The notes beneath the pieces were generated by a model, which was not told the DNA's origin, did not search any database, and was given only the letters and a program-made list of their open reading frames with translations. A stretch of 55,389 bases of DNA, from assembly GCA_904420465.1 (NCBI GenBank), contig CAJFVL010000004.1, forward strand, positions 1-55,389, given 5' to 3'. Positions 20,744-42,907 of the stretch are shown in pieces (position 1 is the stretch's first letter; each line of letters begins with the position of its first letter). The stretch comes from an uncultured Clostridium sp. Its GTDB lineage: Bacteria > Bacillota > Clostridia > Oscillospirales > Oscillospiraceae. The translations under genes were made by a program, and so were the position numbers.

Positions 20744-20782
20744 CGCGCATCACCTCACCCTGGCACCGGACCTTCTCCCGGC

Positions 20783-21556: not shown

Positions 21557-21567
21557 GGGTCAGCCCC

Positions 21568-21813: not shown

Positions 21814-21828
21814 GCCTGTCCCCCCTTG

Positions 21829-22491: not shown

Positions 22492-22504
22492 CTCCGGCCC
22501 TCCC

Positions 22505-22870: not shown

Positions 22871-22882
22871 GGCGGGACGGGA

Positions 22883-23248: not shown

Positions 23249-23282
23249 GTCAATTCACCCTTTTAGTCCTTTCATGTATTGG

Positions 23283-24632: not shown

Positions 24633-24636
24633 GCCC

Positions 24637-25650: not shown

Positions 25651-25677
25651 TCTTTTCCCTCCCTGGCCAAGCTTGCG

Positions 25678-26499: not shown

Positions 26500-26532
26500 G
26501 GTGCAGCCTCCTCCCAGCCTCAGGGCGCGGCA

Positions 26533-27396
26533 TTACTTCTTCCGGCCGCGGCGCCGCCGCTTGCCGTCTGCCTCGCCGGAGCCGGCACCGGAAGCGCCGT
26601 CCCGCTTGCTTTCATTCATAAAGGTCAGCAGCCGCTCCCGGAGAAATTTGGGATTCTCGCCCGCCTGGATGGCCATAATGCCCTCCATGATGATCTGGCG
26701 GCACAACACCTCCTCCTCATCCCGGGCGGTGAGGTTGGCCGCGATGGGGTTGAACACCACATGGGCCATCAGAGAGCCGTAAAAGGTGGTGACCAGAGCC
26801 ACCGACATATTGGGACCCAGAGAGTTCATGTCCGCCCCATCCAAAGACCGCAGCATATTGATCAATCCAATCAGCGTGCCGATCATGCCGAAGGCGGGGG
26901 CGGCGTTGGAGCCCCGCTCATACATGGCCACCACCTCCTGGTGGCGGCTGGAGGTCTGCTCGATCTCGTTCTCCAGGATGGAGCGCACCTGCTCCGGGTC
27001 GTTGTTGTCCACCACCAGCATGATGGCCTGCTTGAAGAAGGCGTTCTCCTGCTCGTTGCCCTTCTCCTCCAGGGCCAGCAGGCCGTTTTTCCGGGCAATC
27101 TGGGCCAGCTCGGTGAGCTGGTCGATGTAGATGGTGGGGTCAAAGGCGTTGACCCGCAGCAGAATGCGGAAATGCTTGATGAAATCCTTGGCCTGCTTGG
27201 GATAGCAGGCCACCACCACCGCGATGGTGCCGCCGATGACGATCAGAATACTGGACACATCGACGAAGTTGAACAGCGCCCCGGGGTTGAACGAGATATC
27301 CGGGGCCTGTCCCGGCGTCAGGGTGATGGTGACGATGATGCCGAAGGCGGTGAATCCAAACGCCAGCAGCAATCCGATCAAGTATACGATATTCAT
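26533..27396 (-). CDS. motA: Flagellar stator protein MotA
   Basis: Stator channel subunit of 287 residues. Four hydrophobic helices are visible, at about 3-24, 45-64, 167-187 and 199-220. The cytoplasmic loop contains the charged LARKNGLLALEE-like block (here IARKNGLLALEEKGN), and AAPAFGMIGTLIGLINML is the family signature. The C-terminus is strongly basic (KRRRRGRKK). It is encoded between flbD and motB within the main operon rather than in a separate stator operon. Confidence 0.95.
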   Translation of the reverse strand: MNIVYLIGLLLAFGFTAFGIIVTITLTPGQAPDISFNPGALFNFVDVSSILIVIGGTIAVVVACYPKQAKDFIKHFRILLRVNAFDPTIYIDQLTELAQIARKNGLLALEEKGNEQENAFFKQAIMLVVDNNDPEQVRSILENEIEQTSSRHQEVVAMYERGSNAAPAFGMIGTLIGLINMLRSLDGADMNSLGPNMSVALVTTFYGSLMAHVVFNPIAANLTARDEEEVLCRQIIMEGIMAIQAGENPKFLRERLLTFMNESKRDGASGAGSGEADGKRRRRGRKK

Positions 27397-27449
27397 AGTC
27401 GCGCTTTCCTTCCGTCTCTCTCTAGCTGGGCCTTACGCCGGCCCGCTGT

Positions 27450-27668
27450 TTATCCCCGCTTATCCACCACACTGATCTCCCGGTGGATGTCCTGAACCTT
27501 GGCGTTGTACTCGGCGATCTTTTGGATGATCTCCTCCGCCGTATCCCGAACCAGATAGTAGTCGTGATTCATCATAACCACCTTGCACTCGGGGATCAGC
27601 TCGATACATTCGATCTGATTGTGATTGACCAGAAAACGCTCGTTATTCATCTTTCTCAGTACAATCAT
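27450..27668 (-). CDS. flbD: Flagellar protein FlbD/SwrD family
   Basis: A 72-residue protein beginning MIVLRKMNNERFLVNHNQIE, which with ECKVVMMNHDYYLVRDTAEE is the FlbD/SwrD signature. In Bacillus subtilis SwrD raises flagellar torque and lies in the fla/che operon next to flgE. The position between flgE and motA fits. GGAGAG precedes the ATG. A long GC-rich hairpin lies between it and flgE. Confidence 0.92.
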   Translation of the reverse strand: MIVLRKMNNERFLVNHNQIECIELIPECKVVMMNHDYYLVRDTAEEIIQKIAEYNAKVQDIHREISVVDKRG

Positions 27669-27685
27669 GGTCTCTCTCCTTCCCC

Positions 27686-27713
27686 GGCCCCCGGGGAGGA
27701 CCCCCCGGGGGCC
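27686..27713. other. GC-rich hairpin between flgE and flbD
   Basis: An 11-bp perfect stem (27686-27696 with 27703-27713, GGCCCCCGGGG and its complement) has a 6-base loop and no U-run. It probably does not terminate transcription by itself. It could protect the 3' end of the flgE message or set relative expression of hook and downstream genes. Confidence 0.55.
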
Positions 27714-27738
27714 GCGTGCCGTCAGCTTGCTGGTTTGT

Positions 27739-28875
27739 TTACCGCTTCATGTTCACCAGCTCTTCCAGCATGGTGTCGGTGACGGTGACGATGCGGGTAT
27801 TGGCCTGGTAGCCGCGCTGGTAGACGATCATGTTGGCAAACTCCTGGGCCAGGTCGGTGCCCGAGGCCTCCAGGAAGCCGGGCTGCAGGCCCACCGGGTT
27901 GTTGGCCAGCAGCATATTGCCAATCTCCAAATTGTCAGTGTTGCCATTTGCCAAATCATCCTGATTGTTCAGATATCCGGGAATCGAGCTGTTGGGCGTG
28001 CCGATGGTCAGCGTCCCGGCCGCGTCGCCGGCGGTGAAATAGGGGCCCTCGGTGTGCTGCAGGCCTCCGGGATTGACCACGTTGCCCAGCGCCACATAGC
28101 CCACCACCACCGGGTCGCCGGTGTCGCTGTTCACCCCGGTGATCATGCCGTTGGCATCAATGGATACGCTCTCCAGCTGGACAAATTGATTCTCAACCGC
28201 TCCAGAATTGGCGGAATTTTCAGGATTGATATTTCTTCCGCTGTCCTGATCGACGCCCGGATAAACCGCAGTGCCTGGTGCGATATACCCCGGATCTTCC
28301 GGATCATCCACATTTGCCCCCTCATGCTTCAAAGGAAGGCGAATAGGTACCAGCGCGGTGCTGACACCGGACCCATTTGTTCCTGCCTCTTCAAGCAGCT
28401 CACCGTTCTCATCCACATTACAGGTCAAAAACCCGTACACCACATTCCCGTGGCCGTCGGTGAGGTAGCCGTCGGGGCCGAACTCGAAGTCGCCCACCCG
28501 GGACAGGGAGAGGGCCTTGGCGTCCTCCGCGCTGTTTACAATAACATTCTTGGGGCCCACCAGGAAGAAGCCGTCTCCCTGAATGAACAGGTCGGTGGCA
28601 ATGCCGGTGTTCTCCAGGGACTGGGTGGACATATCCAGGTCGATGGTGCCGATGCTGCAGCCGTAGCCCGTCTGTTTGGGGTTGGTGCTGCCCACGGTGG
28701 CCGTGCCGCCGGAGCCGGCGTCCTGGGTGGAGTACATGCTCTCCGAGAAAATGACCCGCCCGGGCTTATAGCCGTAGGTGTTCACGTTGGCAATGTTGTT
28801 GCCCACCACGTTCAGGGCCTCCATGTGGGTCTTTAAGCCGGAAATTCCCGCGCTCATTGCGCCTGTCAATGCCAT
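27739..28875 (-). CDS. flgE: Flagellar hook protein FlgE
   Basis: Subunit of the hook. 378 residues with N-terminal MALTGAMSAGISGLKTHMEAL and VVGNNIANVNTYGYK, the core IQGDGFFLVG, and the C-terminal LAQEFANMIVYQRGYQANTRIVTVTD helix. The central region is variable and slightly AT-richer (around 28150-28420), as expected for the exposed hook domain. AAAAGGAG precedes the ATG at 28875. It follows flgD and the small flagellar-operon gene. Confidence 0.95.
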   Translation of the reverse strand: MALTGAMSAGISGLKTHMEALNVVGNNIANVNTYGYKPGRVIFSESMYSTQDAGSGGTATVGSTNPKQTGYGCSIGTIDLDMSTQSLENTGIATDLFIQGDGFFLVGPKNVIVNSAEDAKALSLSRVGDFEFGPDGYLTDGHGNVVYGFLTCNVDENGELLEEAGTNGSGVSTALVPIRLPLKHEGANVDDPEDPGYIAPGTAVYPGVDQDSGRNINPENSANSGAVENQFVQLESVSIDANGMITGVNSDTGDPVVVGYVALGNVVNPGGLQHTEGPYFTAGDAAGTLTIGTPNSSIPGYLNNQDDLANGNTDNLEIGNMLLANNPVGLQPGFLEASGTDLAQEFANMIVYQRGYQANTRIVTVTDTMLEELVNMKR

Positions 28876-28976
28876 AAGTAAGATCTCCTTTTGCGATTGC
28901 TGTTTTGCTCAGCGCCGCCGGAGGTCCGCCAGTCGGGCGGCCTCCAGGACATCCGGAATGGTCCTGCCCTCTGTGT

Positions 28977-29375
28977 TCACAGGATCACGGCGCCGTCAAT
29001 GTTGGTGAATACGTTCTCTTTCATTTCATCCTGGGACAGGGTGGTGATAACCCGCTGATTGGGCACGTTGATGATGAAGGCCAGACTGCGGTCCAGGGCC
29101 AGAATGTTGGTGGCCCCCTTGGCCTCCGCCCGCTCCACTGAGTCGGTCAGCCGGTCCAGCAGGGTGGGGGTCACTTCGATGCCCCGCTCCTCCGCCCGGG
29201 CCAGGGCGTGCTTGGAAAATGCCACCTGCCTGCCCTCGGTCCGGTCCAGCTCCTGCTGGAATGCCTGGGCAAATCCGTTCCTCTGTCCGGTCTGGAACTG
29301 CTGCCCTGTCCGGCGCTGTTCCGCCGCCGTCTGGGCCACACCTTGAAAAGACACCCCGTGAATCGGGTCGATCAC
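28977..29375 (-). CDS. Conserved small flagellar operon protein (TIGR02530-like)
   Basis: A 132-residue protein found between flgD and flgE in many Firmicutes. It has the recognisable block FSKHALARAEERGIEVTP and a C-terminal FIINVPNQRVITTLSQDEMKENVFTNIDGAVI. Its exact role is unknown; co-occurrence suggests hook assembly. The start is read as GTG at 29375, since GGAGG lies 8 bases upstream; the GTG three codons earlier overlaps the ribosome site itself. A gap of about 100 bases with an imperfect stem (near 28920-28944) separates it from flgE. Confidence 0.83.
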   Translation of the reverse strand: MIDPIHGVSFQGVAQTAAEQRRTGQQFQTGQRNGFAQAFQQELDRTEGRQVAFSKHALARAEERGIEVTPTLLDRLTDSVERAEAKGATNILALDRSLAFIINVPNQRVITTLSQDEMKENVFTNIDGAVIL

Positions 29376-29428
29376 ATTTTTCACCTCCTTCTTCTCCCGC
29401 GGACTGTCTCAAATCCCGGGGCTTGTGC

Positions 29429-30001
29429 TCAGACCTCGGGCGTCTCCGTTCCCTGGTCTCCATCTCCGCCTGATCCCTCTTCCGGGGGTTCTTCGGGAGC
29501 CTCCGGCACTTCGGGCAGGCGGCCGATGGCCATAATGTCGCTCAAGGCGTACATCTCTCCGTCCACGAAGATCACCTGGACCCCCTGGTAAGTTCCGGTC
29601 CCGGTCACCTCGCCCACGATCTCCTGCAGGTTGCCCTCGTCATCGTAGCGTCCGACCGTCACCGTCTGGCCCACCAGAGAAGCCGCATAGGTGAGCGTGT
29701 TGGCGTCCACCAGGGTGTCAATGCTGGTTTTGACCGTGGTCATCATCTGAACCACTGACATCTGGACCAGCTGGTTGAGCATATCCGAGGTGTCGGTTGT
29801 ATTGTCAATGGTCTGATTCTGCAGCTGCTGCACCATCAGCTGGAGGTAGTCGGTGAACTCCAGGCCCAGGTCCTCGCCCGGGTTGTTGATCTCATAGTCC
29901 TCCATCCAGCTGGTATCCGAGGAGCCGCTGGTCCGCCCGCTGGACAAGCTGGGCGAGGTGCTGTAAAAACGCTCCAGCTCCAGGGGCATAAAATCGCTCA
30001 T
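29429..30001 (-). CDS. flgD: Hook-capping protein FlgD
   Basis: Cap scaffold for hook assembly. 190 residues with the conserved N-terminal block LGLEFTDYLQLMVQQLQNQ, followed by NTTDTSDMLNQLVQMSVVQMM, the FlgD hallmark. The middle has LVGQTVTVGRYDDEGN and a short beta-rich region; the C-terminus is an acidic, glycine- and proline-rich tail. The order fliK-flgD-(small gene)-flgE is conserved. GGAGC precedes the ATG. Confidence 0.92.
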   Translation of the reverse strand: MSDFMPLELERFYSTSPSLSSGRTSGSSDTSWMEDYEINNPGEDLGLEFTDYLQLMVQQLQNQTIDNTTDTSDMLNQLVQMSVVQMMTTVKTSIDTLVDANTLTYAASLVGQTVTVGRYDDEGNLQEIVGEVTGTGTYQGVQVIFVDGEMYALSDIMAIGRLPEVPEAPEEPPEEGSGGDGDQGTETPEV

Positions 30002-30020
30002 GCTTTCCTGCTCCTTTCTC

Positions 30021-31166
30021 TCACAGGGGGCTCGCCTGCTGCCCCGCCAGTCCCAGACGAAGCTGGTGGAGAAAATCCTCCGCCTCCCGCCGGGGCTGCT
30101 CCCGCCGCTGGTCTTGGGAGCGGCCCTCCTGCCGGCCCTGCCCGCCGTCCTGGTCGGGCTGCCGCCAGGGCTGCTGCTGGCTCTCCTGAGAGCGGGTCAC
30201 CTCCACCCGCACCTCCCCCTGGCCGCTGCTCTGGAGCATCAGGCCCAGGGTGCTGGCGTGCTCCCGCAGAAGGCTGAGGGTGTGCTCGCTCTCGGCCCGC
30301 AGGGCCACATGGAGAACGCCGCTGCCGTCCCGGGTCATCTCCACCACCAGATTCCCCAGGTGCTCGGGGGACAGGGCGATCTGGATCTTCTCCGCCCCCT
30401 GGCTTGCGGCATTGAGGATGGTCTGGCTCAGCCTGCTGTCAAACCGGGGCTCGGCGGTGTCCAGCACGGGGCTGTCGCCCACCTTCACGGGAACCGCCTC
30501 CAGCTCTCCGAAGAGGGGCTGGGACAGGCTGCCCTGGACCTTCACCTCCTCCAGGCCGTCGGGCTGTCCGCCCCCCGCCTGGGTCTGGGACTGGGGCCGG
30601 CCCTCCTCCCCCTGGCTCTGCCGGGGCTGGATCTGAACGGGCTGAACGGGCTGGCTGTCCGCCTGAACCGGGGCCTCCTGGGCCTGAGTCTGCGCGCCCT
30701 GTGTCTGGATCTCGGGGGCCGCCTGCTGCGCGGGAAGGGTCTGGACCTGTTCCCCGGCTGAAGGCTGCACGGGGACCGCCTGGGCCTCCCCCTGGACCAT
30801 CACGGCCTGGGACATGGCCTGGATGGGCTGTCCGGTCTCGGGCACAGGTTCCGCTGTCTGGGGCGCCGCCAGGCTGATTCCTATCATCGCGGCCAGCTGG
30901 GCCGCCGGGTCCGCCTGAGGCTGTAAAGCAGGCCGCTCCTCATCCTGAACAGGCTGGGTCTCGTCAGTCTGGTCCTGGGGACGGTCCAGCCGCCCGGCCT
31001 GGCCGCTCTGGCCGGCCTGCGCCCTTTTGTCCTCCAGCATGGACTGGAAGTCGCTCTTTCCACCCGTCTGCCCGGTGCTCTGGGATGGGGCGGGCAGGGT
31101 GCTCTGGGCAATCCGCCCGGCCACCAGGGCCATCTGCATCAGCAGCTGGGTTGTATCGGTTGTCAT
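30021..31166 (-). CDS. fliK: Flagellar hook-length control protein FliK
   Basis: Secreted molecular ruler that ends hook growth and switches export specificity through FlhB. About 381 residues: a long Gln/Pro/Ala-rich N-terminal region (about 25-245) and a compact C-terminal domain with KIQIALSPEHLGNLVVEMT and LREHASTLGLMLQSSG, the FliK hook-control signature. The ATG at 31166 is preferred, with AAAGGAGG 8 bases upstream. A second FliK-like protein is encoded far upstream at 48859-50301. Confidence 0.9.
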   Translation of the reverse strand: MTTDTTQLLMQMALVAGRIAQSTLPAPSQSTGQTGGKSDFQSMLEDKRAQAGQSGQAGRLDRPQDQTDETQPVQDEERPALQPQADPAAQLAAMIGISLAAPQTAEPVPETGQPIQAMSQAVMVQGEAQAVPVQPSAGEQVQTLPAQQAAPEIQTQGAQTQAQEAPVQADSQPVQPVQIQPRQSQGEEGRPQSQTQAGGGQPDGLEEVKVQGSLSQPLFGELEAVPVKVGDSPVLDTAEPRFDSRLSQTILNAASQGAEKIQIALSPEHLGNLVVEMTRDGSGVLHVALRAESEHTLSLLREHASTLGLMLQSSGQGEVRVEVTRSQESQQQPWRQPDQDGGQGRQEGRSQDQRREQPRREAEDFLHQLRLGLAGQQASPL

Positions 31167-31208
31167 GGTTCTCACCTCCTTTCAAGGGATCAATGGAATT
31201 TCTATCGT

Positions 31209-31658
31209 TCACGACAGGCTGGCCGCCGCGCGGGTGTTAGACACCAGCTCGTCGATGAACTGCTCCTCCTGCTTCTGGACGGCCTTCTGGTAGTCGTCCC
31301 ACTGGTGCTCCCGCAGCTTTTCCAGGGCGGCGGCGTCCTGCCGGGCGGCTACCAGCCGCAGGCGGCGCTCCTCGGCCTCCTGCCGCATCTGCTCCAGCTT
31401 CGCTTCCGCCCGCTGGATCTCCCCCTCCAGCACCCGCAGGCCCATCTCATAGCCCATGGCGTCGGCCACGGTGATGCCTGCCGCCTCCGCTTCCCGGAAC
31501 CCGGCGTTCAGATCCCGGTAGCGGCCTTCCAGGGCCGCCAGTATCCCCTCCTGGTCCCGGACCCGGGCCAGGGCGGCGGCATACTCGTTCTGCATGTTGT
31601 CCAGTACCTGCTGCTTGTACCGGAGCACGGTATCCAGATTAAACTGAAACTTTTTCAT
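31209..31658 (-). CDS. fliJ: Flagellar export chaperone/ATPase stalk FliJ
   Basis: A 149-residue, nearly all coiled-coil protein beginning MKKFQFNLDTVLRYKQQVLD, the standard FliJ start. FliJ inserts in the FliI hexamer like the gamma subunit of F1-ATPase and helps escort chaperones. It lies directly after fliI in the operon. Confidence 0.9.
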   Translation of the reverse strand: MKKFQFNLDTVLRYKQQVLDNMQNEYAAALARVRDQEGILAALEGRYRDLNAGFREAEAAGITVADAMGYEMGLRVLEGEIQRAEAKLEQMRQEAEERRLRLVAARQDAAALEKLREHQWDDYQKAVQKQEEQFIDELVSNTRAAASLS

Positions 31659-31705
31659 CTGTGATCCACCCCTGGATTTTCGTTTCCTGCTTCTCCGGCG
31701 GGGCT

Positions 31706-33007
31706 TTACAGCAGCCCCCGCATGATGTTCAGGTCCTCCTCGTAGGAGAAGGCCTCGTTGATCCCCTGGGTCAGAAACTGGTTGATGCCGTCAATCTTGC
31801 TCAAGGCGTAGTCCAGCCGGGGGTTGGTCCCCGCCTTGTAGGCCCCGATGGACACCAGGTCGGAATTCTTTTCGTAGATGCTCAGCACGTCCCGCACCCG
31901 GGCGGCCAGGGTACGGTGCTCCTGGGAGACGATGTCGGTCATCAGACGGGAGATGCTGGCGCTGACGTCGATGGCCGGGAAGTGGTTGCTGTTGGCCAGC
32001 CGGCGGGAGAGGACAATGTGTCCGTCCAGAATGCCGCGAACGGTGTCGGCGATGGGCTCGTTGGTGTCATCGCCCTCCACCAGCACGGTGTACACCCCGG
32101 TGATGGAGCCTCTCTGGAAGTTGCCGCTGCGCTCCAGCAGCTTGGGCAGCTCGGAGTAGATGGAGGGGGTGTAGCCCCGGGCCACCGGGGGCTCTCCCAC
32201 CGCTAGCCCGATCTCCCGCTGGGCCATGGCAAACCGGGTGAGAGAGTCCATCATCAGCAGAACGTCCAGCCCCTGGTCCCGGAAGTACTCCGCGATGCCG
32301 GTGGCCACCGAGGGGCACTGCTTGCGCAGCATGGCCGGCTGGTCGGAGGTGGCCACCACCAGCACCGAGCGGCGCATGCCCTCCTCCCCCAGATCCTTTT
32401 CCATGAACTCCAGCACCTCGCGGCCGCGCTCGCCCACCAGGGCGATGACGTTGATGTCCGCCTTGACGTTCTTGGCGATCATGCCCATCAGGGTGCTCTT
32501 GCCCACGCCGGAGCCGGCAAAAATTCCGATACGCTGACCCTTGCCGATGGTGAGCATGCTGTCAATGGCCTTGACTCCGAATTCCATGCGCTCCCGGATG
32601 GGGGGACGGGCCATGGGGTTGATGTACTGGCCGCCCTCCACACAGAAGGGCACGCCGGCGGGAAAAGGGCCCTTGCCGTCAATGGGCTGCCCCAGGGCGT
32701 TGATAACCCGGCCCTTCAGAAAGGGGCCCATTCTCAAGCTCAGGCGCCGGCCGGTATTCCGGACAAAGTTGCCCGCCGAAATGCCGCTCATATCCGAATA
32801 AGGCATGAGGAGCATGTGGTCATTTTTGAAGCCCACCACCTCGGCCATCACCTGGCCTCCGGCCTGGCCGCTGTAGATCTGGCAGATATCTCCCACCGCT
32901 CCCCGGCCGCCGGAGGCCTCGATGGACATGCCCACGATGTTCTCGATCTTGCCGGTGTAGCTGATGGTCTCCGCCTTTTGGATCAGTTGAATTTTGTCTT
33001 TAAACAT
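31706..33007 (-). CDS. fliI: Flagellum-specific ATPase FliI
   Basis: Hexameric ATPase of the export apparatus. 433 residues; Walker A GSGVGKST is at 165-172, Walker B is in LDVLLMMDSLTR, and the family block SIYSELPKLLERSG is present. The N-terminal barrel begins after a short basic helix. It is preceded by fliH and followed by fliJ, the expected complex. AGAGGA precedes the ATG. Confidence 0.97.
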   Translation of the reverse strand: MFKDKIQLIQKAETISYTGKIENIVGMSIEASGGRGAVGDICQIYSGQAGGQVMAEVVGFKNDHMLLMPYSDMSGISAGNFVRNTGRRLSLRMGPFLKGRVINALGQPIDGKGPFPAGVPFCVEGGQYINPMARPPIRERMEFGVKAIDSMLTIGKGQRIGIFAGSGVGKSTLMGMIAKNVKADINVIALVGERGREVLEFMEKDLGEEGMRRSVLVVATSDQPAMLRKQCPSVATGIAEYFRDQGLDVLLMMDSLTRFAMAQREIGLAVGEPPVARGYTPSIYSELPKLLERSGNFQRGSITGVYTVLVEGDDTNEPIADTVRGILDGHIVLSRRLANSNHFPAIDVSASISRLMTDIVSQEHRTLAARVRDVLSIYEKNSDLVSIGAYKAGTNPRLDYALSKIDGINQFLTQGINEAFSYEEDLNIMRGLL

Positions 33008-33030
33008 GGGCTTTTCCTCTTGGATGCCGG

Positions 33031-33846
33031 TCAGCCGCTTTTCAAGACATCCCGGATGTTGTTCATCTGGGTGGACGCGCTGGCGTCGATGATCTCGTCC
33101 GGCATCTCGATAATCAGCGTACCCAGCTCGTCATCGGCCATGGGGATCAGCTTGATGTGGTCGGACAGCCCGGCCAGGGTGCGGGTCAGTTCAGGGGCCA
33201 GCTGGGCAAGCTCCCTGGCCTCGCAGCCCCCCACATAGATGTGGACCCACTCCCGCCGCCGCAGCTTCTCAGTGGCCACCTGGATCATCCGGACCACCAC
33301 CTCCCGGCTGGTACGCAGGCTGATGTGGATGATCTTCTCTGCCGCCGCCAGGGCCAGCTCGCACAGCTCCTCTCGGGTCTGCTCCAGCATGTCCTCCCGG
33401 GCCGCCGAGACCTTCTCCAGCACACCGCGCAGCCGGTCCGCGTCCTGGCGCAGCTGCCGCTCCAACTGGGCGGAGCCCTCCACCCGGGCCTGCTGCAGGC
33501 CCTCGGCATAGCCTTGGCGGTAGCCCTCGTCGCGGGCCTGTGCCCGGGCCTCCTCGGCCTGCTGCCGAATCTTCTCCCTCTCCTGTTCCAGCAGCTGATC
33601 GGCCTGCCGCCGGGCATCCTTCAGAATCTCGTCGGCCTGAATCCTGGCATACTCCAGAATGGCCGGGGCCCCCTGCTCCTGCTCCCCCTCCTCCCGGTGA
33701 GGAGCCGCGCCCTCCTCCTCGGGGGACGGGGAGGGATCGGCAGCCTCCTCCGGAGCCGGGTCCTCGTCCACAGGAATGCTCTCCGCATCGGGGAACACAT
33801 AATTGCTGACCGAGGGACGCAGGAAACTTTTGAAAATGTTAGGCAA
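33031..33846 (-). CDS. fliH: Flagellar assembly protein FliH
   Basis: Regulator and peripheral stalk of the FliI ATPase. 271 residues: a Pro/Glu-rich N-terminus, a long Gln/Arg/Ala coiled coil (about 65-165) and a C-terminal domain with ALAAAEKIIHISLRTSREVVVRMIQ and DDELGTLIIEMPDEIIDASASTQ. The start is a TTG at 33846 overlapping the fliG stop (ATTGCCTAA), with AAAGGA about 8 bases upstream, indicating coupling. Confidence 0.9.
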   Translation of the reverse strand: MPNIFKSFLRPSVSNYVFPDAESIPVDEDPAPEEAADPSPSPEEEGAAPHREEGEQEQGAPAILEYARIQADEILKDARRQADQLLEQEREKIRQQAEEARAQARDEGYRQGYAEGLQQARVEGSAQLERQLRQDADRLRGVLEKVSAAREDMLEQTREELCELALAAAEKIIHISLRTSREVVVRMIQVATEKLRRREWVHIYVGGCEARELAQLAPELTRTLAGLSDHIKLIPMADDELGTLIIEMPDEIIDASASTQMNNIRDVLKSG

Positions 33847-34864
33847 TGATATCGTCCTTTCCGCCCTTGAGGATGATCAGCTCGTTGCGCTCCTCCAGGT
33901 CGCGGATAATGCCCACAATGCGCTGCTGGGCGTCCTCCACATCCCGGATCCGGACATTGGTGGTAATCTCCAGGTCGTCCCGGATGCTCTGGGCCATTCG
34001 GGCGGACATGTTGGTGAAAATCTTGTTGGCCACCTCGCTGTTGGCTCCCTTGAGGGCCAGCACCAGATCTCTGGGATCGCAGTCCCGGATAAAGCGCTGC
34101 ACCGAACGATCGTCCATGGTGATGATGTCCTCGAAAACGAACATCCGCTTGCGGATCTCGTCGGCCAGCTCCCCGTTGTGCTCGGACAGCCGGTCGAAGA
34201 TGTTCTTCTCGCTGGAGCGGTCCAGGTTGTTCATCACATCGGCCACAAAGTCCACGCCGCCCACCTTGACGTTGTTGGAGGTCATCAGACTGGAGAACTT
34301 CTTTTCCATCTCCGCCTCGATGATCTTCACCGCCGTGGGAGAGGCGCTCTCCATATTGGCCATATTCTCAATGACCTTGACCTGCCGGTCGTCGTCCAGC
34401 TCCTCGATGACGGCGGCCGACTTCTCCGCGTCCACATAGGAGAGGACCAGGGCGATGGTCTGGGGCCGCTCGTGCTGAAGGGCTGCGTACAGAGACTTCT
34501 CATCCGCCTTGTTCAGGAAGGAGAACTCCCGGTTCTTCAGGGATTTGGTCACCTTTTCCAGCAGGCTGGCCGCAGCCTGCTGTCCAAAGGCCTTCTCCAG
34601 CACGGCCCGGGCGTATTCCAGACCCCCTTCCGTCACCGCCTTGTTGGTCATGCACATCTGGTAGTACTCGTTGAGCACCTCCTCGGTGGAGGCCGAGTCC
34701 AGATATCCCAGCTTGGCCACCTCCAGCGTGATCTGCTCCACGTCCTCGGGGTCCATGTACTGATAGAGCTGGGAGGCCTTGTCCGTCCCCAGAGAGACGA
34801 TGACGGTGGCCGCCTTCTGCTGGCGGGTCAGCTTGGGTCGGGGGGCAGCTGCCGTTTCACTCAT
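33839..34864 (-). CDS. fliG: Flagellar motor switch protein FliG
   Basis: C-ring protein that contacts the MS ring and the stator. 341 residues. The N-terminal domain includes KLTRQQKAATVIVSLGTDKAS, the middle domain has the EHPQTIALVLS-like motif (HERPQTIALVLSYVDAEKSA), and the C-terminal domain carries FVFEDIITMDDRSVQRFIRDCD and LVLALKGANSEVANKIFTNMS, the torque-helix region. Its ATG overlaps the fliF stop (ATGA at 34861-34864). Confidence 0.97.
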   Translation of the reverse strand: MSETAAAPRPKLTRQQKAATVIVSLGTDKASQLYQYMDPEDVEQITLEVAKLGYLDSASTEEVLNEYYQMCMTNKAVTEGGLEYARAVLEKAFGQQAAASLLEKVTKSLKNREFSFLNKADEKSLYAALQHERPQTIALVLSYVDAEKSAAVIEELDDDRQVKVIENMANMESASPTAVKIIEAEMEKKFSSLMTSNNVKVGGVDFVADVMNNLDRSSEKNIFDRLSEHNGELADEIRKRMFVFEDIITMDDRSVQRFIRDCDPRDLVLALKGANSEVANKIFTNMSARMAQSIRDDLEITTNVRIRDVEDAQQRIVGIIRDLEERNELIILKGGKDDIIA

Positions 34865-36453
34865 TCTCCGTCATCCCCCTCCCTCAGCCAGCTCTTCACC
34901 ATCTGAGCCGCGATCTCCGGGTTCTCCTCGGCAAATTTACGGATGTCCCGGCGCAGCTCCATGCTCTTTTCCGTTTTCATCTCCATGATGTCCGCCCCTT
35001 CGGCCGCAGGCGCCGGCGCTGCCAGCACCACGCCCGCCGGCTCGCCGTCCTCCCGGGCCAGCAGGGCCGCCTTTTTCCGTCTGCGCCGCCGGACCAGCAG
35101 GATAATCAGCATCAGCACCAGGAACAGCAGCAGGCCTCCCGCCGCCGCAGCCAGGACCCAGACAGGCACTCCCTCCGGCACCGGGATGGGCGCGGCATTC
35201 TCCTCATAGAAGGGGGCGACCAGGATGGAGACCTTCTCCCCCTGCACATCCTGGCTGATGCCGGCGGCCCGGGCCACATGGGCATACAGGTCCTGCGTGG
35301 CGGCCGCCCCGGCGGTATCCTGATTGATGGTCACCGCCACCATGACGTCGGCCACGGTGCCGGCAAGGTGCTCCACCTGAGTCTGCTGGGTGTCCACCAG
35401 GTTGTGCTCCTCACCGCTGTTTTGAATCAGCTCCTCGTCCCCCTGGATCTGCAGCTCATTTTCCACATAAGTATTGAGATCCGCGTTGGATGGGGTGCCC
35501 ACCACGCCGCCCACGGCGCCGTCATCCCCCCGGATAATGGTTTGGTCATAAATCCGGTCTCCGATGATTTCTTCGTCGGCGCCCTCCTCCAGGGAGTAGT
35601 CGGTGGAATCTGTATAGGTGCGGTCCACATCCACCACGCTGTTGACGCTGACCCGCACGTTGTCCTCCCCAAAGAGAGGGATCAGCGCCTGGAGCACCTG
35701 GGTGCGCACCTTATTGTTCGTCTGCTCCTCCAGCCGCAGCTTCAGCTGGGAGACATCCTGAATATCCGTGAAGGTGCCGCCCGCGGTGTAGTCGTTGCCG
35801 TATTGGTCATCAATGGACACATTTTCAATGGACAGACCCTGGACCGCATGGCTTACCGCGCTGCGGATGGCATTCACCTGCCCCTCCTCCAGCGTGCGGC
35901 CCTCCTCCATCATCACAAACACGGAAGCGGTTGCCTCCACCACATTGCCGCTGTCCAGCACATAGGTGTGGTCCTCCCCCGGAGAGATGCTGACGGTGGC
36001 CTCCCGGACCCCCTCAAAGTTCCGGATCACCCCGGCCAGCCGGTCCTGGGTGTCGTACAGGATCAGCTGACGGCGCTCGGACTCAGTGGTCAGGCTGCTT
36101 ACGTTGTCCAGATACATGGAGTAGTCCGACCCGGAGCTGGGATACCCCTCCACCAGCAAAGCGGCCTGCAGCTGAGCCGCCTGACCCTCCGGAACCAGAA
36201 TGGTGTCGTTCCCCTGAATGCGGTAGTCGGTCACACCGCTCTCCGACAGGTAGGTCACGATCTGAGACAGGTCGGTCTGGCTCAGCCGGGTAAACAATAC
36301 CGTGTAGGGCTGATTCATGCTGACAGCCGCCGCAAGAATGATGATGACCAGCACCGCTGCCGCACCGGCCCCCATCAGGATCTTGACCTTTTTCCCGATG
36401 GAGCCCCACCATTTTTTAACCTTGTTCCAAATTTCCTTAAGCTTCTCTTGCAC
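34861..36453 (-). CDS. fliF: Flagellar MS-ring protein FliF
   Basis: Forms the MS ring in the cytoplasmic membrane. 530 residues with one membrane helix at about 28-48 and another at about 425-450 (VWVLAAAAGGLLLFLVLMLI). Between them are the ring-building motifs, including YTVLFTRLSQTDLSQIVTYL and DTQDRLAGVIRNFEGVREATVSISPG. The C-terminal tail (about 490-530) is the FliG-binding segment. The start is GTG with GGGAGGGG upstream. Confidence 0.96.
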   Translation of the reverse strand: MQEKLKEIWNKVKKWWGSIGKKVKILMGAGAAAVLVIIILAAAVSMNQPYTVLFTRLSQTDLSQIVTYLSESGVTDYRIQGNDTILVPEGQAAQLQAALLVEGYPSSGSDYSMYLDNVSSLTTESERRQLILYDTQDRLAGVIRNFEGVREATVSISPGEDHTYVLDSGNVVEATASVFVMMEEGRTLEEGQVNAIRSAVSHAVQGLSIENVSIDDQYGNDYTAGGTFTDIQDVSQLKLRLEEQTNNKVRTQVLQALIPLFGEDNVRVSVNSVVDVDRTYTDSTDYSLEEGADEEIIGDRIYDQTIIRGDDGAVGGVVGTPSNADLNTYVENELQIQGDEELIQNSGEEHNLVDTQQTQVEHLAGTVADVMVAVTINQDTAGAAATQDLYAHVARAAGISQDVQGEKVSILVAPFYEENAAPIPVPEGVPVWVLAAAAGGLLLFLVLMLIILLVRRRRRKKAALLAREDGEPAGVVLAAPAPAAEGADIMEMKTEKSMELRRDIRKFAEENPEIAAQMVKSWLREGDDGE

Positions 36454-36484
36454 TGTTACCCCTCCCGGCCCCTGTGCCGCACGC

Positions 36485-36787
36485 TTACACGCTCAGGCGC
36501 ATGAGCTCGTTATAGGCGTCCAGTGCCCCGTTCCGGAGCTGAATCAGCATGCTGACCGAGATCTCCCACTGACTGCTGGCGATGGACAGCTCCGCCGGGT
36601 TGTCCAGCTGTCCGGTGGCCAGGCGGTACTCCGCATCGTTTTTAGCCGTCTCGGTCTGCTTCACATTGTTGATCGCCGATTGAAAAATGTCCGCGAACAA
36701 GGTGCTTTGTTCCCGGACTGTCTGAATTCCGCCCTCGTCTCCGGCGGACAGATCGCTCCACAGCGGCTGGATCGGCTGAAAGTTCAT
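36485..36787 (-). CDS. fliE: Flagellar hook-basal body protein FliE
   Basis: A 100-residue MS-ring/rod junction protein. The C-terminal half is typical: ELSIASSQWEISVSMLIQLRNGALDAYNELMRLSV. It sits between flgC and fliF as in Bacillus and clostridia. AAAGGAG precedes the ATG. Confidence 0.93.
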   Translation of the reverse strand: MNFQPIQPLWSDLSAGDEGGIQTVREQSTLFADIFQSAINNVKQTETAKNDAEYRLATGQLDNPAELSIASSQWEISVSMLIQLRNGALDAYNELMRLSV

Positions 36788-36847: not shown

Positions 36848-37297
36848 CTATCTTCCAATCTCCAGGCCGCGCTCGCACATCTGCTTGAGCACATTGAAAG
36901 CGGTCACGTTGGCTGAATAAGCCTGGCTGGCCGCCATGGCGTCAGCCATCTCCTGAATCAGGTCCACATTTGGCATCTCCACATAGCCATCCGCGTTGGC
37001 GTCCGGATGAGTGGGGTCATACACCAGCTTGAAGTCAGAGGGGTCCTCCACAATCTGAGTCACCTGAACGCCGCCCTCCAGTCCCCGTGAGGTTCGGCCC
37101 AGCGCCCGGTTCAGTGCCGTCTGAAAGGGGCTGCGCTCTCCTTCCGCCTGGAACACCACCATCTTCCGGCGGTATGGGCCGCCCCCTTCCGTGCGGGTGG
37201 TGGTGCGGTTGGTCACATTTTCAGAGACTACATCAAGCCGCAGCTGCTGGGCGGTCAGTCCGGAACCCACTACATTCATCGAGCTTAAAAAGGCCAT
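36848..37297 (-). CDS. flgC: Flagellar basal-body rod protein FlgC
   Basis: Proximal rod subunit of 149 residues. The N-terminal helix (SSMNVVGSGLTAQQLRLDVVSENVTNRTT) and the C-terminal NVDLIQEMADAMAASQAYSANVTAF are the conserved rod motifs. AAAAGGAGG precedes the ATG. It is the second gene of the operon behind the invertible promoter. Confidence 0.95.
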   Translation of the reverse strand: MAFLSSMNVVGSGLTAQQLRLDVVSENVTNRTTTRTEGGGPYRRKMVVFQAEGERSPFQTALNRALGRTSRGLEGGVQVTQIVEDPSDFKLVYDPTHPDANADGYVEMPNVDLIQEMADAMAASQAYSANVTAFNVLKQMCERGLEIGR

Positions 37298-37801: not shown

Positions 37802-37830
37802 TGAAACAACATAATGATACGTTATGTTGT
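37802..37830. repeat. Left 29-bp inverted repeat (recombination site, flgB side)
   Basis: Exact reverse complement of 38098-38126 over 29 bp. Inside it, two 9-bp half-sites, ACAACATAA and TTATGTTGT, are perfect complements around an asymmetric 7-bp spacer TGATACG. This is the geometry of a tyrosine-recombinase core site. It lies in the leader of flgB. The bases just outside (GCAT on the left, CCAA inside) differ from those of the other copy, marking the repeat ends. Confidence 0.9.
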
Positions 37831-37882
37831 CCAAATAAGGACCGAGGCTGAAAGAAACTTGAAGCATTTACACTTTCATCAT

Positions 37883-37911
37883 ATTTTATCTCTACTCTGT
37901 TCTTTTTTCAA
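37883..37911 (-). promoter_or_regulatory. Strong vegetative promoter of the flgB operon, inside the invertible segment
   Basis: On the minus strand, TTGAAA (37906-37911) and TAAAAT (37883-37888) are separated by exactly 17 bp, each matching the sigma-A consensus at five of six positions (TTGACA, TATAAT). Transcription would start near 37876 and read through the left repeat into flgB. I see no comparable promoter between the left repeat and flgB, so this is the likely main promoter of the 33-gene operon. Confidence 0.78.
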
Positions 37912-38020
37912 GGATTATTTTTTATTATTCTCCTACTTAAATAAAACTGCAATATTGGTGCTTTTCTCCAGAATTGACCTCTTTCAGCGGGGTTTTTTCC
38001 AGTTAATTTCCATGTCTGGA

Positions 38021-38051
38021 TAGGGGAGGCGCGCTCTGCGCGCCTCCCCTA
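38021..38051. terminator. Hairpin terminator inside the invertible segment
   Basis: A 14-bp perfect stem (38021-38034 with 38038-38051) has a 3-base loop. On the plus strand it is followed by CTTTATGTATATATT, a fair U-rich tail; on the minus strand the tail is poor. In this orientation it separates the end of the recombinase gene from the flgB promoter. After inversion the good-tail strand would face flgB. Confidence 0.65.
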
Positions 38052-38073
38052 CTTTATGTATATATTAGCTATA

Positions 38074-39024
38074 CTACCAAAGTTTAACGCTGCACAAACA
38101 ACATAACGTATCATTATGTTGTTTCATCAAGCAAAGCTCCTCCAGACTGTGTCCTTCCGGGATAAACAGGTTTAAAGACTCAATCTGCGCCCGGTGGAGT
38201 TCCCCTCCCGACAAGGTATAGATCCGGGTTGTATTGATATTTTTATGTCCCAGGATATCCGCCAGGTGCAGGATATCCTTTTCTTTTTCGTAAAATGTGC
38301 AGGCGAACAGATGGCGCAGATTATGGGGGTGGGCCTTCAGAGGCGACACTCCGGCCTCTCTGCAAAGGCCCTGCATGGCCCGCCAGATATTGCTCCGGTT
38401 CAGCGGGTTCCCTGTCCGGGTAATAAAAATGGGCCCGCTCTGAATTGTTTTCCAGGCAGCGTACTGGCACAGCACCTCGCACAGCCTTCTCGGAATCAGA
38501 ATCATTCTGCTTTTCCCCTTGTTCCGCACCACAGTGCGCCCCTCCCGCACACCTTCCACTGTGACATATTTCAGCTCGCTGATCCGGATTCCCGTGGTGC
38601 AGAGAGTCAGCAGCAGCAGATACAGACGGATCTGCTTTTTGCTCCGGGCTGCGTCCAGCAGCCGTTTGTACTCCTCCCGCGTCAGCTCTCTGTTCTGGTC
38701 GCAGAAGGTCTGATACTGAAGCTTAAAGGGCTTGACACAGCAGCTTTCTGCTCCAATAAATTTTAAAAATTGATTCAGCGCCGTCAGCATGGAGTTTGCG
38801 CTCCTCACCGCGTACCGCTCCGCCAGCCAGCTTTTATATTCGATTACCTGCTCCTTTCCAAAATATGTCCGGTTTTGCTGGAAATCCAGAAACACCTCCA
38901 CATCGTGCAGATATTTGCGGATGGTGGCGCCCTCCTTCTCGTCCAGCTCCAGATAACGGCGGAATGACGCAATGGTGTCCGGTGCAATGCGAAATACATG
39001 CTTTTTGACTGTGCTCACGCTCAT
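38074..39024 (-). CDS. Tyrosine site-specific recombinase, candidate invertase of the flagellar switch
   Basis: A 316-residue integrase/XerC-type recombinase with an N-terminal SAM-like core-binding domain (about 12-95) and a C-terminal catalytic domain. The catalytic residues are all visible: R147 (TTGIRISEL), K171, H234 and R237 (HNLRH), H260 (LGH) and the nucleophile Y269 (TRIYT). M300 to C309 are encoded by the right inverted repeat and residues 310-316 (LCSVKLW) by invertible DNA. After inversion the frame would continue PNKDRG and stop, giving 315 residues. GGGGGG precedes the ATG. Adjacency to the repeats makes it the obvious invertase, similar in role to RecV of C. difficile; the partnership is inferred. 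Confidence 0.92.
   Translation of the reverse strand: MSVSTVKKHVFRIAPDTIASFRRYLELDEKEGATIRKYLHDVEVFLDFQQNRTYFGKEQVIEYKSWLAERYAVRSANSMLTALNQFLKFIGAESCCVKPFKLQYQTFCDQNRELTREEYKRLLDAARSKKQIRLYLLLLTLCTTGIRISELKYVTVEGVREGRTVVRNKGKSRMILIPRRLCEVLCQYAAWKTIQSGPIFITRTGNPLNRSNIWRAMQGLCREAGVSPLKAHPHNLRHLFACTFYEKEKDILHLADILGHKNINTTRIYTLSGGELHRAQIESLNLFIPEGHSLEELCLMKQHNDTLCCLCSVKLW
38098..38126. repeat. Right 29-bp inverted repeat (recombination site, inside the recombinase gene end)
   Basis: Exact reverse complement of 37802-37830. It lies within the recombinase coding sequence, in frame as codons 300 (last two bases) to 309. The half-sites and 7-bp spacer are as in the left copy but in opposite direction, so recombination between the two should invert rather than delete the DNA between them. 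Confidence 0.9.
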
Positions 39025-39208: not shown

Positions 39209-42200
39209 TCAGATTGTCAGCGCACTGGCCAGCATTACGGCCATTTCCGCCCGCGTTGTGGTCTGAAGGGGACTGATGGTATTCTGCTGGGTGCCTGACA
39301 TGATGCCGTACTCAAGCATCAGCGCCAACGCATCCCGGGCGTAAGCGTCAATCTGCCAGCTGTCTGTGTAGCGGTCCAGCAGGCCCTGATTCCCGCTGCC
39401 CAGGCTCCAGCCGTTTGCCTGCATGGCCCGCAGCAGCATGACCGCCGCGTCCTGCCGGCTCACCGGGTCCATGGGATGAAAGCCGCCGTCCGGGTAACCG
39501 CCGGCCACCCCCAGCGCCTGGGCAGTGGAGACTGCCTGGGCATAATAGCTGTCTGCCGGCACATCCCAGAAGCCGCTTCCGCTGCGGCCGGACAGGTCAA
39601 ACGCCTGGCAGAGCATCAGCACAAAATCTCCCCGGGTGATCCGCCGGTCTGGACCGAACTGGCCCGCGCCCACACCGCTGACCACTTCGTTTTCATACAG
39701 AAAGTCCACCGCCGAGGCCGCCCACCCGTAACTGCCCATGTCCGTAAAATGGCGGGAGCTGCCGCTGTTCTGCACCGTGATCCTCACCTGCCCGTGAAGC
39801 GTTTCGCCCCGCTCGTCCCGGGCGGTATAGGGGATGGAAACCGTTCCCAGATACCCCACGCGGGGCACAAAGGACACCTCGGCGATCCGGGGGGATCTGC
39901 TGGGATAATAGTTGGTGGAGGAGCGCACCTCGGACGCACTTCCTCCCACTCCGTCGTAGCGGTAGTACAGGTGTCCCGCCGAGCTGCCGGGCGGCGTGAA
40001 GCGGACATAGTCCAGATCGTCCAGTCCCGCATCCTGACAGGCGTCCTCAAAATCCTGGACTCGGAAGGTCACCGGGCTGTAGGAGGTGGTATAGGAGAGA
40101 TTGGAGGAGCCGGTCCCCTCCACCTCAATTTCCACCTCGCCCTCAAAGCTCTCGTTTCCGGTGGAACGGCCGGTAAACTGGATGCGCACCGTACCCTGGT
40201 AGCTCCGGCTGGCCTCAAAGGACACCCGGTCCAGGTAGGGGCTGGAGGAACGGTAGTAGCTGCGGGAGGAGGTAACCCGGTGGGTGTAATCTCCGCCATC
40301 GTACTCATAGTACAGGACTCCCCGGGACGAGCTGGGCAGGGTGAAGCGCACATAGCGCAGCCGGTCCCCTGTCAGGTCCTGGCACAGATCATCAAAGTCA
40401 TCCACATCAAATTCCACCGCGTCCCCGGCCCTCACCTGGTAGCGGATGGCGTCGCCGCCATCCTCCACCCGGATCACCACCGTTCCGGTGAAGCTCTCGT
40501 CATCCACACTCTCCCCTCTAAAGGAGATCTCCACTGTGCCGGTGTAGTCCTCGTCCGGGACAAAGGCCACCCGGTCCAGGCGGTAGGTTCGGGTTCCATA
40601 ATAATAATTTCTGTTCTCCCTCACCTCATGGTCATAATCTCCATCGTCCTCGTCGTAGTTGTAGTAGAGGTCTCCCTGAGAGGACCGTGGGAGTTCAAAG
40701 CGGACATAGTCCAGGGTGCTGCCGGTGACGTCCCGGCACAGGGCATTGAAGTCGGCGTCATCAAAGGTGACCGATCCGTTCCGGCGTACGCTGTAGCGGA
40801 TATCTCCGCCGTCCGAGCTGCCCACCCGGATCTCCACCACGCCGGAAAAGCGGTTGCCCCGGGTGTCCCAGGCGGTAAATTCCACCTCCGCCGTGCCTGT
40901 GAAATCCTCATCGGCCACAAAGGTGACCCGACGCAGGTAGGGGGAGGAGTCCATATAGTAGCTGTCGTCATCATCCACCGGCTCCCCCCGGTTTCCGGAG
41001 CTGGTGTAGTTGTAGTAGAGGCTGCCTTCGCCGGCACTGGGGAGCTCAAAGCGGACATAGTCCAGAGCACTGCCCGTCACATCCCGGCACAGATCGTCAA
41101 AGTCATCGTCATCAAAGGTGATGCGGCCTCCCTGGCTGATGGAATAGCTCAGGTCGCCGGTCCCGCCGGCAGGCTCGTTGACCCGTACGGTGACCCTGCC
41201 CCGGAAGGTTACGCCATTCACATCGCAGGCGGTGTAGGAGATCACCGCCTGCCCGGTAAATCCCGGGTCTGGGACAAAGTAGACCTCAGAGAGGCTGGGC
41301 GTGCCGTTGAGGCGGTATTCCCGGGAGGGGTCCACCTGGGTGCCCGGGTTGGATTCGGAAATGTAGTGATAATAGAGCGTCCCGCGGCTGCTGTCCGGCT
41401 GGGAGAACATGACCCAGCGCAGTTCCCGGCCGGTCTGATCCCGGCACACCCGGCTGAAGTCATCCGCGCTGAGCTGGAGGGCCTGATCGGCGGAGGTGGT
41501 GTAGGAGATGCCGTCGGGGGCCTCCACATCCACCTCAATGGTGCCCTGGAAGGTGCCGCCGCCCGAAGCATAGCCGATATAAGAGATGACGGCGGTGCCG
41601 CTGAAGTCGCTGTTGGGCACAAAGGTCAGGTCATCCAGATCCCACTGTCCGGAGCGCGGAGCGCGGTAAAACGTGTCGCCCGCACCCACCCCGGCTCCGG
41701 TGTCGCTCTCCGACTGGTAACGGTAGTAGAGGGTGCCCTGGCTGGTGGGAACGCTGACGCTGCCGATGTAGGACAGGCTCCCGCCCAGCACGCTGCGGCA
41801 CTCGCTGTCCAGGTCACTGGAGATGCTGGAGAAGGACAGCGGATCGCCCACCTGGGCGTCGGCGGGGATGGGATCGGCCTGATTGGAGGTAATGGTGACG
41901 GAACAGGAGTCCTCATATACTCTGCTGTTGACTGCAACCCGTGCGGTGACTGTCACCGGAGATGTGGTGGGCATCTCCGGATAGACGAATCCCTGATCCA
42001 CTGTCAAAAAGCCTGCCGGATCACAAGACCAGGCGACGCTTCGGTCGGCCGCCGCTTCAATCAGATCTCCAAATCCTCTCACATAGAGCATGCCATTCTG
42101 ATTTTCCCGGAAGGTAAAGGAATTAACCGGCCGCGTCCCATTCTCACTGTCCGTAATGATGATGCCCCGGACGGTGATGGTGCAGGTTTCCTCCATTCCT

Positions 42201-42907
42201 CCGGACGCCCGTCCGGTAATCGTCGCTGTACCGGGCTGATCCCCGGCCTTGACCTCTCCGGTTTCTCTATCCACGGACACAATGTCAGGGCTGTCACTTG
42301 TCCAGGTGATGGTCTGCTCCGCCGCCCCCTCTGGGGTAAATGAGGCGATCATCTGACCGGTGCTGTCCGGCTCCAGCTCATTGTTGCTGCTGCCGCTGAG
42401 GCGGATGGACATACCGGTCGGCTGACCGGCGGTGATGCGCCTGATCTCACATCGGCCCTGATTGCTCCTCGGCACGGCGCCTTCCATCAGCTGCACCGTA
42501 ACGACCACATTATCTTCCAATTCTTCCTGGGACGTAAGCAGGCGGAGGGCACTTACCGTGGCTTTGAAGGGGTCGCCCGGGTCCTGTGTTACCCTTACGG
42601 CTGGACTGCTTTCAGGATCGCCGTTATAGCCGTAATCCCAGACAATCTCCATGCCGTCCGGCACTTCTGTAACCGGAGTGCCGTCCAATTCCAGGCTAAC
42701 CGTCAGCGGCTGGCTGTCTCCATCCACGACCAATTCATTCACATCGGTCGGGGTAACCGTCAGATCATACTGCTCGGTTGGCTGCCCTCCCCCATCGCTT
42801 CCGTCTCCGCCCCCCTCCTCCGCAGCAAGGACAGCGGGGGTCAGGGAGGACAGCAGGGCAGCCGACAGCAGCAGAGAGAACAGCCTGCGCTTCCATGTTG
42901 TTTTCAT
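39209..42907 (-). CDS. S-layer-homology surface protein with Ig-like domain and six tandem ~117-residue repeats
   Basis: A secreted, cell-wall-bound protein of 1232 residues. A signal peptide (basic MKTTWKRR, hydrophobic stretch, ending near VLAAE at 30) is followed by Gly/Asp-rich linker and a bacterial Ig-like (BIG2) domain around 160-250 (IVSVDRETGEVKAGDQPGTATI). Six tandem repeats follow, at about 350-466, 467-585, 586-702, 703-820, 821-937 and 938-1047. Each has a DDFxxxCxD motif, a LYYxY motif and a FTGTxxIxFTA-type end. Three SLH domains (about 1053-1230) anchor it to wall polymer. It lies between the recombinase and a second SLH protein. Function is unknown; adhesion or S-layer assembly is plausible. 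Confidence 0.85.
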   Translation of the reverse strand: MKTTWKRRLFSLLLSAALLSSLTPAVLAAEEGGGDGSDGGGQPTEQYDLTVTPTDVNELVVDGDSQPLTVSLELDGTPVTEVPDGMEIVWDYGYNGDPESSPAVRVTQDPGDPFKATVSALRLLTSQEELEDNVVVTVQLMEGAVPRSNQGRCEIRRITAGQPTGMSIRLSGSSNNELEPDSTGQMIASFTPEGAAEQTITWTSDSPDIVSVDRETGEVKAGDQPGTATITGRASGGMEETCTITVRGIIITDSENGTRPVNSFTFRENQNGMLYVRGFGDLIEAAADRSVAWSCDPAGFLTVDQGFVYPEMPTTSPVTVTARVAVNSRVYEDSCSVTITSNQADPIPADAQVGDPLSFSSISSDLDSECRSVLGGSLSYIGSVSVPTSQGTLYYRYQSESDTGAGVGAGDTFYRAPRSGQWDLDDLTFVPNSDFSGTAVISYIGYASGGGTFQGTIEVDVEAPDGISYTTSADQALQLSADDFSRVCRDQTGRELRWVMFSQPDSSRGTLYYHYISESNPGTQVDPSREYRLNGTPSLSEVYFVPDPGFTGQAVISYTACDVNGVTFRGRVTVRVNEPAGGTGDLSYSISQGGRITFDDDDFDDLCRDVTGSALDYVRFELPSAGEGSLYYNYTSSGNRGEPVDDDDSYYMDSSPYLRRVTFVADEDFTGTAEVEFTAWDTRGNRFSGVVEIRVGSSDGGDIRYSVRRNGSVTFDDADFNALCRDVTGSTLDYVRFELPRSSQGDLYYNYDEDDGDYDHEVRENRNYYYGTRTYRLDRVAFVPDEDYTGTVEISFRGESVDDESFTGTVVIRVEDGGDAIRYQVRAGDAVEFDVDDFDDLCQDLTGDRLRYVRFTLPSSSRGVLYYEYDGGDYTHRVTSSRSYYRSSSPYLDRVSFEASRSYQGTVRIQFTGRSTGNESFEGEVEIEVEGTGSSNLSYTTSYSPVTFRVQDFEDACQDAGLDDLDYVRFTPPGSSAGHLYYRYDGVGGSASEVRSSTNYYPSRSPRIAEVSFVPRVGYLGTVSIPYTARDERGETLHGQVRITVQNSGSSRHFTDMGSYGWAASAVDFLYENEVVSGVGAGQFGPDRRITRGDFVLMLCQAFDLSGRSGSGFWDVPADSYYAQAVSTAQALGVAGGYPDGGFHPMDPVSRQDAAVMLLRAMQANGWSLGSGNQGLLDRYTDSWQIDAYARDALALMLEYGIMSGTQQNTISPLQTTTRAEMAVMLASALTI

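Follow-up and report, generated by a model that had tools for sequence, protein, structure and literature searches.

The window, that is the whole stretch of 55,389 nucleotides analysed here from a contig of an uncultured Clostridium sp. belonging to a gut-associated group, carries directly upstream of the flagellar gene flgB what is very probably a self-contained ON/OFF switch of the flagellar operon that works by inverting a promoter (we put the probability at roughly 0.88). Its parts, and the genes that it would control, are as follows.

37802-37830, inverted-repeat arm on the flgB side, with a 25-bp core at 37806-37830 consisting of half-sites 37806-37814 and 37822-37830 around the 7-bp spacer TGATACG
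38098-38126, inverted-repeat arm on the recombinase side, with its core at 38098-38122
37831-38097, the 267-bp segment between the arms, predicted to be invertible
37883-37911, minus strand, sigma-A-type promoter TTGAAA-17-TAAAAT toward flgB (ON state), its -10 end 52 bp from the arm
38021-38051, strong GC hairpin, predicted terminator of the OFF state, with a T-rich tail (5 T in 8) on the plus-strand side only
38074-39024, minus strand, XerC/D-like tyrosine recombinase of 316 aa, reading through the arm and ending inside the segment
37319-37705, minus strand, flgB, first gene of the motility series (TIGR01396, above cut-off)
36848-37297, minus strand, flgC, by family search
17561-36787, minus strand, the rest of the early flagellar series, as closely spaced same-strand frames
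16720-17550, minus strand, fliA, the flagellar sigma factor gene (TIGR02479, above cut-off), in the same series

A reading made earlier from the sequence alone had described a perfect 29-bp inverted repeat around 267 bp, and a scan of 8 kb confirmed it: the arms are 29 nt each and 100% complementary, with 267 nt between them, and form the longest perfect pair among the 23 listed. Even a far lower repeat score than the window's was reached in 0 of 122 shuffled regions downstream of related recombinase genes (single-base shuffles, one per region) and in 0 of 60 upstream regions, so a chance origin of the repeats is negligible. Within each arm lies a near-palindromic 25-bp core of 9 + 7 + 9 positions, ACAACATAA-7 bp-TTATGTTGT, which has the form expected of a tyrosine-recombinase crossover site. 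In the window's own assembly (2.35 Mb in 133 contigs, 88.6% complete) the exact pattern AACATAA-N7-TTATGTT is confined to the two arms, although the sites of the Clostridioides difficile recombinase RecV share no clear sequence (available text of PMC5386303), so a search by core pattern may pass over further sites for the window recombinase. The exact arm was absent from the viral contigs searched, and a search for arm relics in relatives lacking the unit gave isolated one-mismatch matches and no pairs.

The promoter that had been placed inside the segment and aimed at flgB was found there on the minus strand (37911..37883); it agrees with the consensus at 10 of 12 positions and is the strongest among the 4 sites of a 3-kb region, where shuffled sequences average 1.7. 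Its direction suggests that the captured sequence is in the ON state, as had also been proposed. Inverted repeats around a short segment with an internal promoter, the arrangement by which invertons are recognised, are thus present in the window, the promoter being called by its sequence. The T-rich tail of the hairpin lies on the plus-strand side only and would therefore point toward flgB once the segment had flipped to OFF, a state that would then combine the loss of the promoter with a terminator.

The neighbouring tyrosine recombinase looks intact: it matches PF00589 (Phage_integrase) with 99 bits against a cut-off of 27, and alignment to solved XerA/XerD-type structures places R, K, H, R, H and Y at the positions that we take to be its catalytic residues. 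Its second-best match in its own assembly is only 30% identical. Three distant relatives emerged from a scan of genome contigs and one, at 40%, from phage records; none was confirmed in the viral contigs searched. Directly upstream of the recombinase gene and on the same strand, positions 39209-42907 encode a large protein with C-terminal repeats that look SLH-like by eye.

On the other side, family searches within 17561-36787 identified fliY, a cheY-like gene, fliP, flhB and flhA, with matches to fliO and fliR slightly under cut-off, and from about 24.6 to 36.8 kb the frames are, judging by sequence and order, presumably fliE to fliK, flgD, flgE, motA, motB and fliM. The fliA gene belongs to this closely spaced series, in agreement with the claim that the motility operon includes it. 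Further downstream of the flagellar genes, on the same strand, lies a gene for a 1032-aa protein with GGDEF and EAL domains (8612-11710).

From these parts we infer that the window recombinase acts on the window arms, that the segment inverts in this species and that its promoter drives flgB. The recombinase would bind the near-palindromic cores of both arms, and strand exchange in the 7-bp spacer would invert the segment. In the captured orientation the segment promoter would serve flgB, and transcription reading on from there would take in the early flagellar series with fliA; the late genes should then follow. After inversion the promoter would be directed at the recombinase gene, entering it from its 3′ side and leaving flgB with no other evident promoter, and the hairpin would turn its T-rich side to flgB and block read-through from the recombinase gene. 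That antisense transcription in the OFF state might feed back on the recombinase is only an idea.

A search of 400 family genomes for FlgB gave a match in 72, the window's own included. The 48 loci closest to the window, together with those in the genera of the window, G339 and G078, made up 79 distinct flgB loci, leaving aside 23 more distant FlgB matches and 7 further flgB places, the latter with no recombinase match listed on the same contig. Four of the 79 have less than 1300 bp of upstream sequence (1175, 558, 547 and 314), so a recombinase could be missed there. The order of recombinase, repeats and flgB is found at 5 of the 79 loci, in genera g1, g23 and g78, always with a core of the same kind between recombinase and flgB. 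Besides the window these are G751 of the same genus (recombinase 69–73% identical to the window's), G339 and G811 of genus g23 (58% and 54%) and G078 of genus g78 (51%). In the window's genus, 35 of 64 genomes have flgB, and 2 of these were seen to have the unit beside it. Among 46 flgB loci without the unit (first set), a strong promoter points toward flgB in 33 and away in 9, with 5 after shuffling, and the unit thus occupies the place of the fixed promoter of its relatives. At one such locus (L089, in G250) the region upstream of flgB has several copies of TAGGGCTTGTTTGAAA and, enclosed by 29-bp inverted repeats, an IS-like stretch of 1.5 kb; the best flgB promoter there scores only 6.2.

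Promoter scores for the window, the flgB loci and the wider family used generic consensus frequencies as weights. By these scores the promoter faces flgB in four of the five flgB-linked units (the window, G751, G811 and G078) and faces away in G339. The call is weak for G078 (a difference of 3.0 near the arms and 1.5 over the whole segment), and G339 also has a weak flgB-facing site (8.9, with a 19-bp spacer) that starts in the arm. Between the arm and flgB the best scores are low, at 5.1 in the window, -0.5 in G078 and -2.1 in G339. An attempt to recognise the OFF state of G339 as a sequence inversion failed, the segments of the window, L160, L161 and L087 having no significant similarity in either direct or inverted orientation; as the segments of the window, G751, G339 and G078 are not alignable, the OFF call of G339 is one of promoter score.

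The recombinase frame crosses the arm and stops inside the segment at 38074 in the window and runs similarly through the arm in G751, G339 and G811, while that of G078 stops before the arm. A stop more than 20 bp inside the segment was seen in 4 of 108 rows (G811 not among them, the double entry L157/L205 included), three of them flagellar. For the arm-encoded residues, the window, G339 and G811 all have QHN..LCC; G751 has QRN..LCC in its captured orientation, which inversion in silico turns into QHN..LCC. The same operation on the window exchanges the last residues of the recombinase, LCSVKLW for PNKDRG. We considered a function for such an orientation-dependent tail and find it doubtful, since residues beyond the arm show no conservation.

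Among 76 units with clear cores, the 25-bp core form with a 9-bp centre is confined to the window, G751 and G339, and by eye G811 has it as well. In G751 a third, degenerate arm-like copy lies by the flgB-side arm (L160:6758-6784), and doubled arms are also seen in L007, L119, L136 and L142. A quick tree had set G078 apart, with two changes, as though its unit had been recruited to flgB separately. However, a tree in which four flgB-linked recombinases were held together scored better, with a p-AU of 0.731 (G811 not included; L157/L205 counted twice). On these trees the flgB-linked recombinases may form a single flagellar lineage, which is not rejected, or may have two origins.

The flgB-linked units belong to a wider family. 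Related recombinases, mostly 40–53% identical, are present in 50 of 200 genomes of the family (E up to 1e-40) and in 87 of 394 of the order (E up to 1e-72), the window's own genome being included in both. We examined 135 recombinase loci, of which 122 have at least 330 bp downstream, corresponding to 120 distinct places (L157/L205 and L159/L207 are each one place entered twice). Just 3′ of the recombinase gene an inverted repeat with a score of at least 13 is present at 107 of the 120 and missing at 13, compared to 0/122 in shuffled regions (both double entries included) and 0/60 in upstream regions. The segments have a median length of 229 bp (quartiles 217 and 249). When considering the better promoter 18–110 bp from the arms, 28 of the 107 units have it facing the downstream gene and 72 the recombinase, with 7 undecided; a scan of the whole segment requiring a difference above 3 gives 23, 62 and 22, respectively. 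In 25 of the 28 and 67 of the 72, the -10 end lies 20–60 bp from the arm that the promoter faces.

The genes downstream of these units are varied. The first downstream frame was taken to be one that reaches 90 aa, or 60 aa where the sequence ends before the frame does. Thirty such frames were scanned by Pfam, and 12 gave nothing at 1e-4. Among the rest are regulators and sensors (response regulators, one with GGDEF, a histidine kinase, a Cache-domain sensor, Rrf2 and TetR), SLH and leucine-rich surface proteins, Wzz, an ABC transporter, SPFH, VWA, a helicase, treble-clef proteins and another recombinase. For instance, in five genomes of the window's genus (L147, L149, L150, L151 and L152) a response regulator follows the unit and the promoter faces the recombinase in all; that of L150 has a GGDEF domain by Pfam and the other four are similar at the start. 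Family units also occur on records labelled as plasmids, from Subdoligranulum and Monoglobus (labels as recorded). Of five relatives on plasmid records, the repeats are clear in three (L222, L223 and L225), different and mismatched in L224 and absent from L226, and a strong promoter is present only in L222 and L225, facing the recombinase. In L224, on the Pusillibacter faecalis plasmid pMM59_01 (typed conjugative), the family recombinase lies upstream of a gene for an S-layer homology protein; the repeats are imperfect and the promoter has no clear preferred direction. The sequence-only reading had seen in the window a self-contained module for flagellar phase variation: the pairing of recombinase and promoter segment stands, but it is not special to motility, the window being one case of a widespread unit.

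Within this family the inversion itself can be seen. The single-contig genome G370, of the same genus, has two copies of one unit (L218 and L219) that are identical in the recombinase gene (over the 839 nt compared) and in 400 nt of downstream sequence but carry the 218-bp segment in opposite orientations, as an exact inversion; promoter direction in this pair is undecided by score (a difference of 1.2). By eye, the gene downstream of this unit resembles the N-terminal part of another tyrosine recombinase. Across species, alignable segments are inverted where the promoter calls are opposite, as in L141/L162, L127/L162 and L132/L133. The similarity of the arms rises with recombinase identity, weakly (r = 0.28), to an extent seen in 0 of 2000 permutations (L157/L205 counted twice). 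Assemblies tend to break at the family repeats: contig ends within 150 bp of the recombinase match were found downstream in 11/121 and upstream in 0/107 (p = 0.0009), leaving out eight short or partial matches. Restoring these gives 11/125 and 2/111 (p = 0.022), and removing in addition a genome with 11 recombinase copies gives 9/118 and 2/107 (p = 0.062), so this line is sensitive to what is counted and only suggestive. Taken with both promoter orientations at the five flgB-linked units and the conserved spacing and promoter position of about 100 units, the G370 inversion supports by comparison the proposal that the window promoter is invertible.

The switch might instead act mainly after initiation, like that of C. 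difficile, with transcription coming from a promoter of the recombinase gene or from further upstream and the orientation of the hairpin deciding whether it terminates before flgB. The one-sided T-rich tail, facing flgB only when flipped, would suit this. So would the finding that, of 101 oriented family segments, 33 have an OFF-state terminator facing the cargo, compared to 1 in shuffles; those facing the other way number 23, compared to 3 (one place, L157/L205, is entered twice in these counts). However, the best near-arm promoter scores at least 10 in 99 of the 107 family segments, compared to 8 of 108 shuffled ones, and no terminator was detected in L160 and L161, two of the four flgB-linked segments tested. 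We consider this account improbable. Somewhat less probable still is a relic, a switch that once inverted and is now locked ON in this species. Consistent with this are the contig, which is intact at the recombinase-promoter unit, the ON state captured in four of the five flgB-linked units and a changed base in the core of one G751 arm, but the window repeats are perfect over 29 bp, and the recombinase frame is open, has all catalytic positions and is 69–73% identical to that of G751. That the repeats serve a mobile element for integration or resolution, with the promoter there incidentally, is very unlikely: relatives on plasmid-labelled records and the duplicated unit of G370 would fit, but the repeats are inverted rather than direct, about 100 units share a promoter at a conserved distance from the arm, and the downstream genes differ widely.

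The promoter-inverting switch that we favour has counterparts in known systems. In the E. coli fim switch, neighbouring tyrosine recombinases invert a promoter, which in the OFF state points toward a recombinase gene. The window unit resembles it in the predicted inversion of a promoter by an adjacent tyrosine recombinase, and differs in its target, in having a single recombinase and in the relationships of that enzyme, which scores 137 bits on the XerA model of NCBIfam compared to 47–56 on PRK09870 and PRK09871, two models named ‘tyrosine-type DNA invertase’ that we take to be Fim-type invertases (all scores are below cut-off). In C. difficile, recV lies elsewhere in the genome, away from the flagellar switch. 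That switch (Cdi4) is described in the available text of PMC5386303 as a 154-bp segment just upstream of the flgB operon with 21-bp imperfect repeats, in which reporter tests revealed no promoter, regulation taking place after initiation; RecV, identified among eight conserved recombinases with a two-plasmid test, has the cwpV switch as a further target. The same text and that of PMC5903667 mention the fim switch. The window is thus like the C. difficile system, as far as that account goes, in having a segment upstream of flgB, a tyrosine recombinase and (here predicted) ON/OFF control of flagella including the sigma factor, and unlike it in its 29-bp perfect repeats, its 267-bp length, the promoter sequence inside and the adjoining recombinase gene. 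Of the parallel drawn earlier with C. difficile, place and outcome hold; the mechanism does not, as the C. difficile segment has no promoter by reporters (PMC5386303, as available).

Invertons of Clostridia tied to a group of tyrosine recombinases have already been published. The available text of PMC11892184 (2025) reports 33 invertons (group 139), 32 of them in Clostridia and nearly all near a tyrosine-type recombinase, which were linked to invertase group 35 and detected by reads in a gut community; likened by description, these may belong to the same general family as the window unit. The term ‘flagell’ is absent from the main text of that paper. Inversions near signalling and chemotaxis genes of Clostridia, based on reads, are described in the available portion of PMC5903667, and Jiang et al., cited in the text seen of PMC11868660, worked on invertible promoters. 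No promoter inversion upstream of a flgB operon was found in the open-access literature searched, a scope outside which Jiang et al. falls. What appears to be new here is a motility operon placed behind a promoter inverter that brings its own recombinase.

More tentatively, and at odds that we would place nearer one in three than one in two, the family may represent a portable cassette of recombinase, sites, promoter and often terminator that is spreading in Clostridia, perhaps with plasmids, and replaces fixed promoters so as to make any operon phase-variable. One lineage would have specialised on flgB; in its members (the window, G751, G339 and G811) the crossover site doubles as recombinase coding sequence, so that each flip would swap the last residues of the enzyme and might give the switch a way to sense which state it is in.

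In the gut, flagellin acts as a strong immune signal, and to our knowledge motility in commensal Clostridia is usually regarded as regulated rather than genetically switched. If the reading given here is true, a dedicated switch sits on the main motility operon, and clonal populations may mix motile and non-motile cells. The sites, promoter and recombinase together span about 1.3 kb, so that the ON or OFF state should be scorable from existing metagenomes, by which the selection of one state by hosts, diets or phages would become directly testable. The wider family additionally provides a list of genes that are likely to be phase-variable, among them a c-di-GMP gene, a chemosensor and surface proteins.
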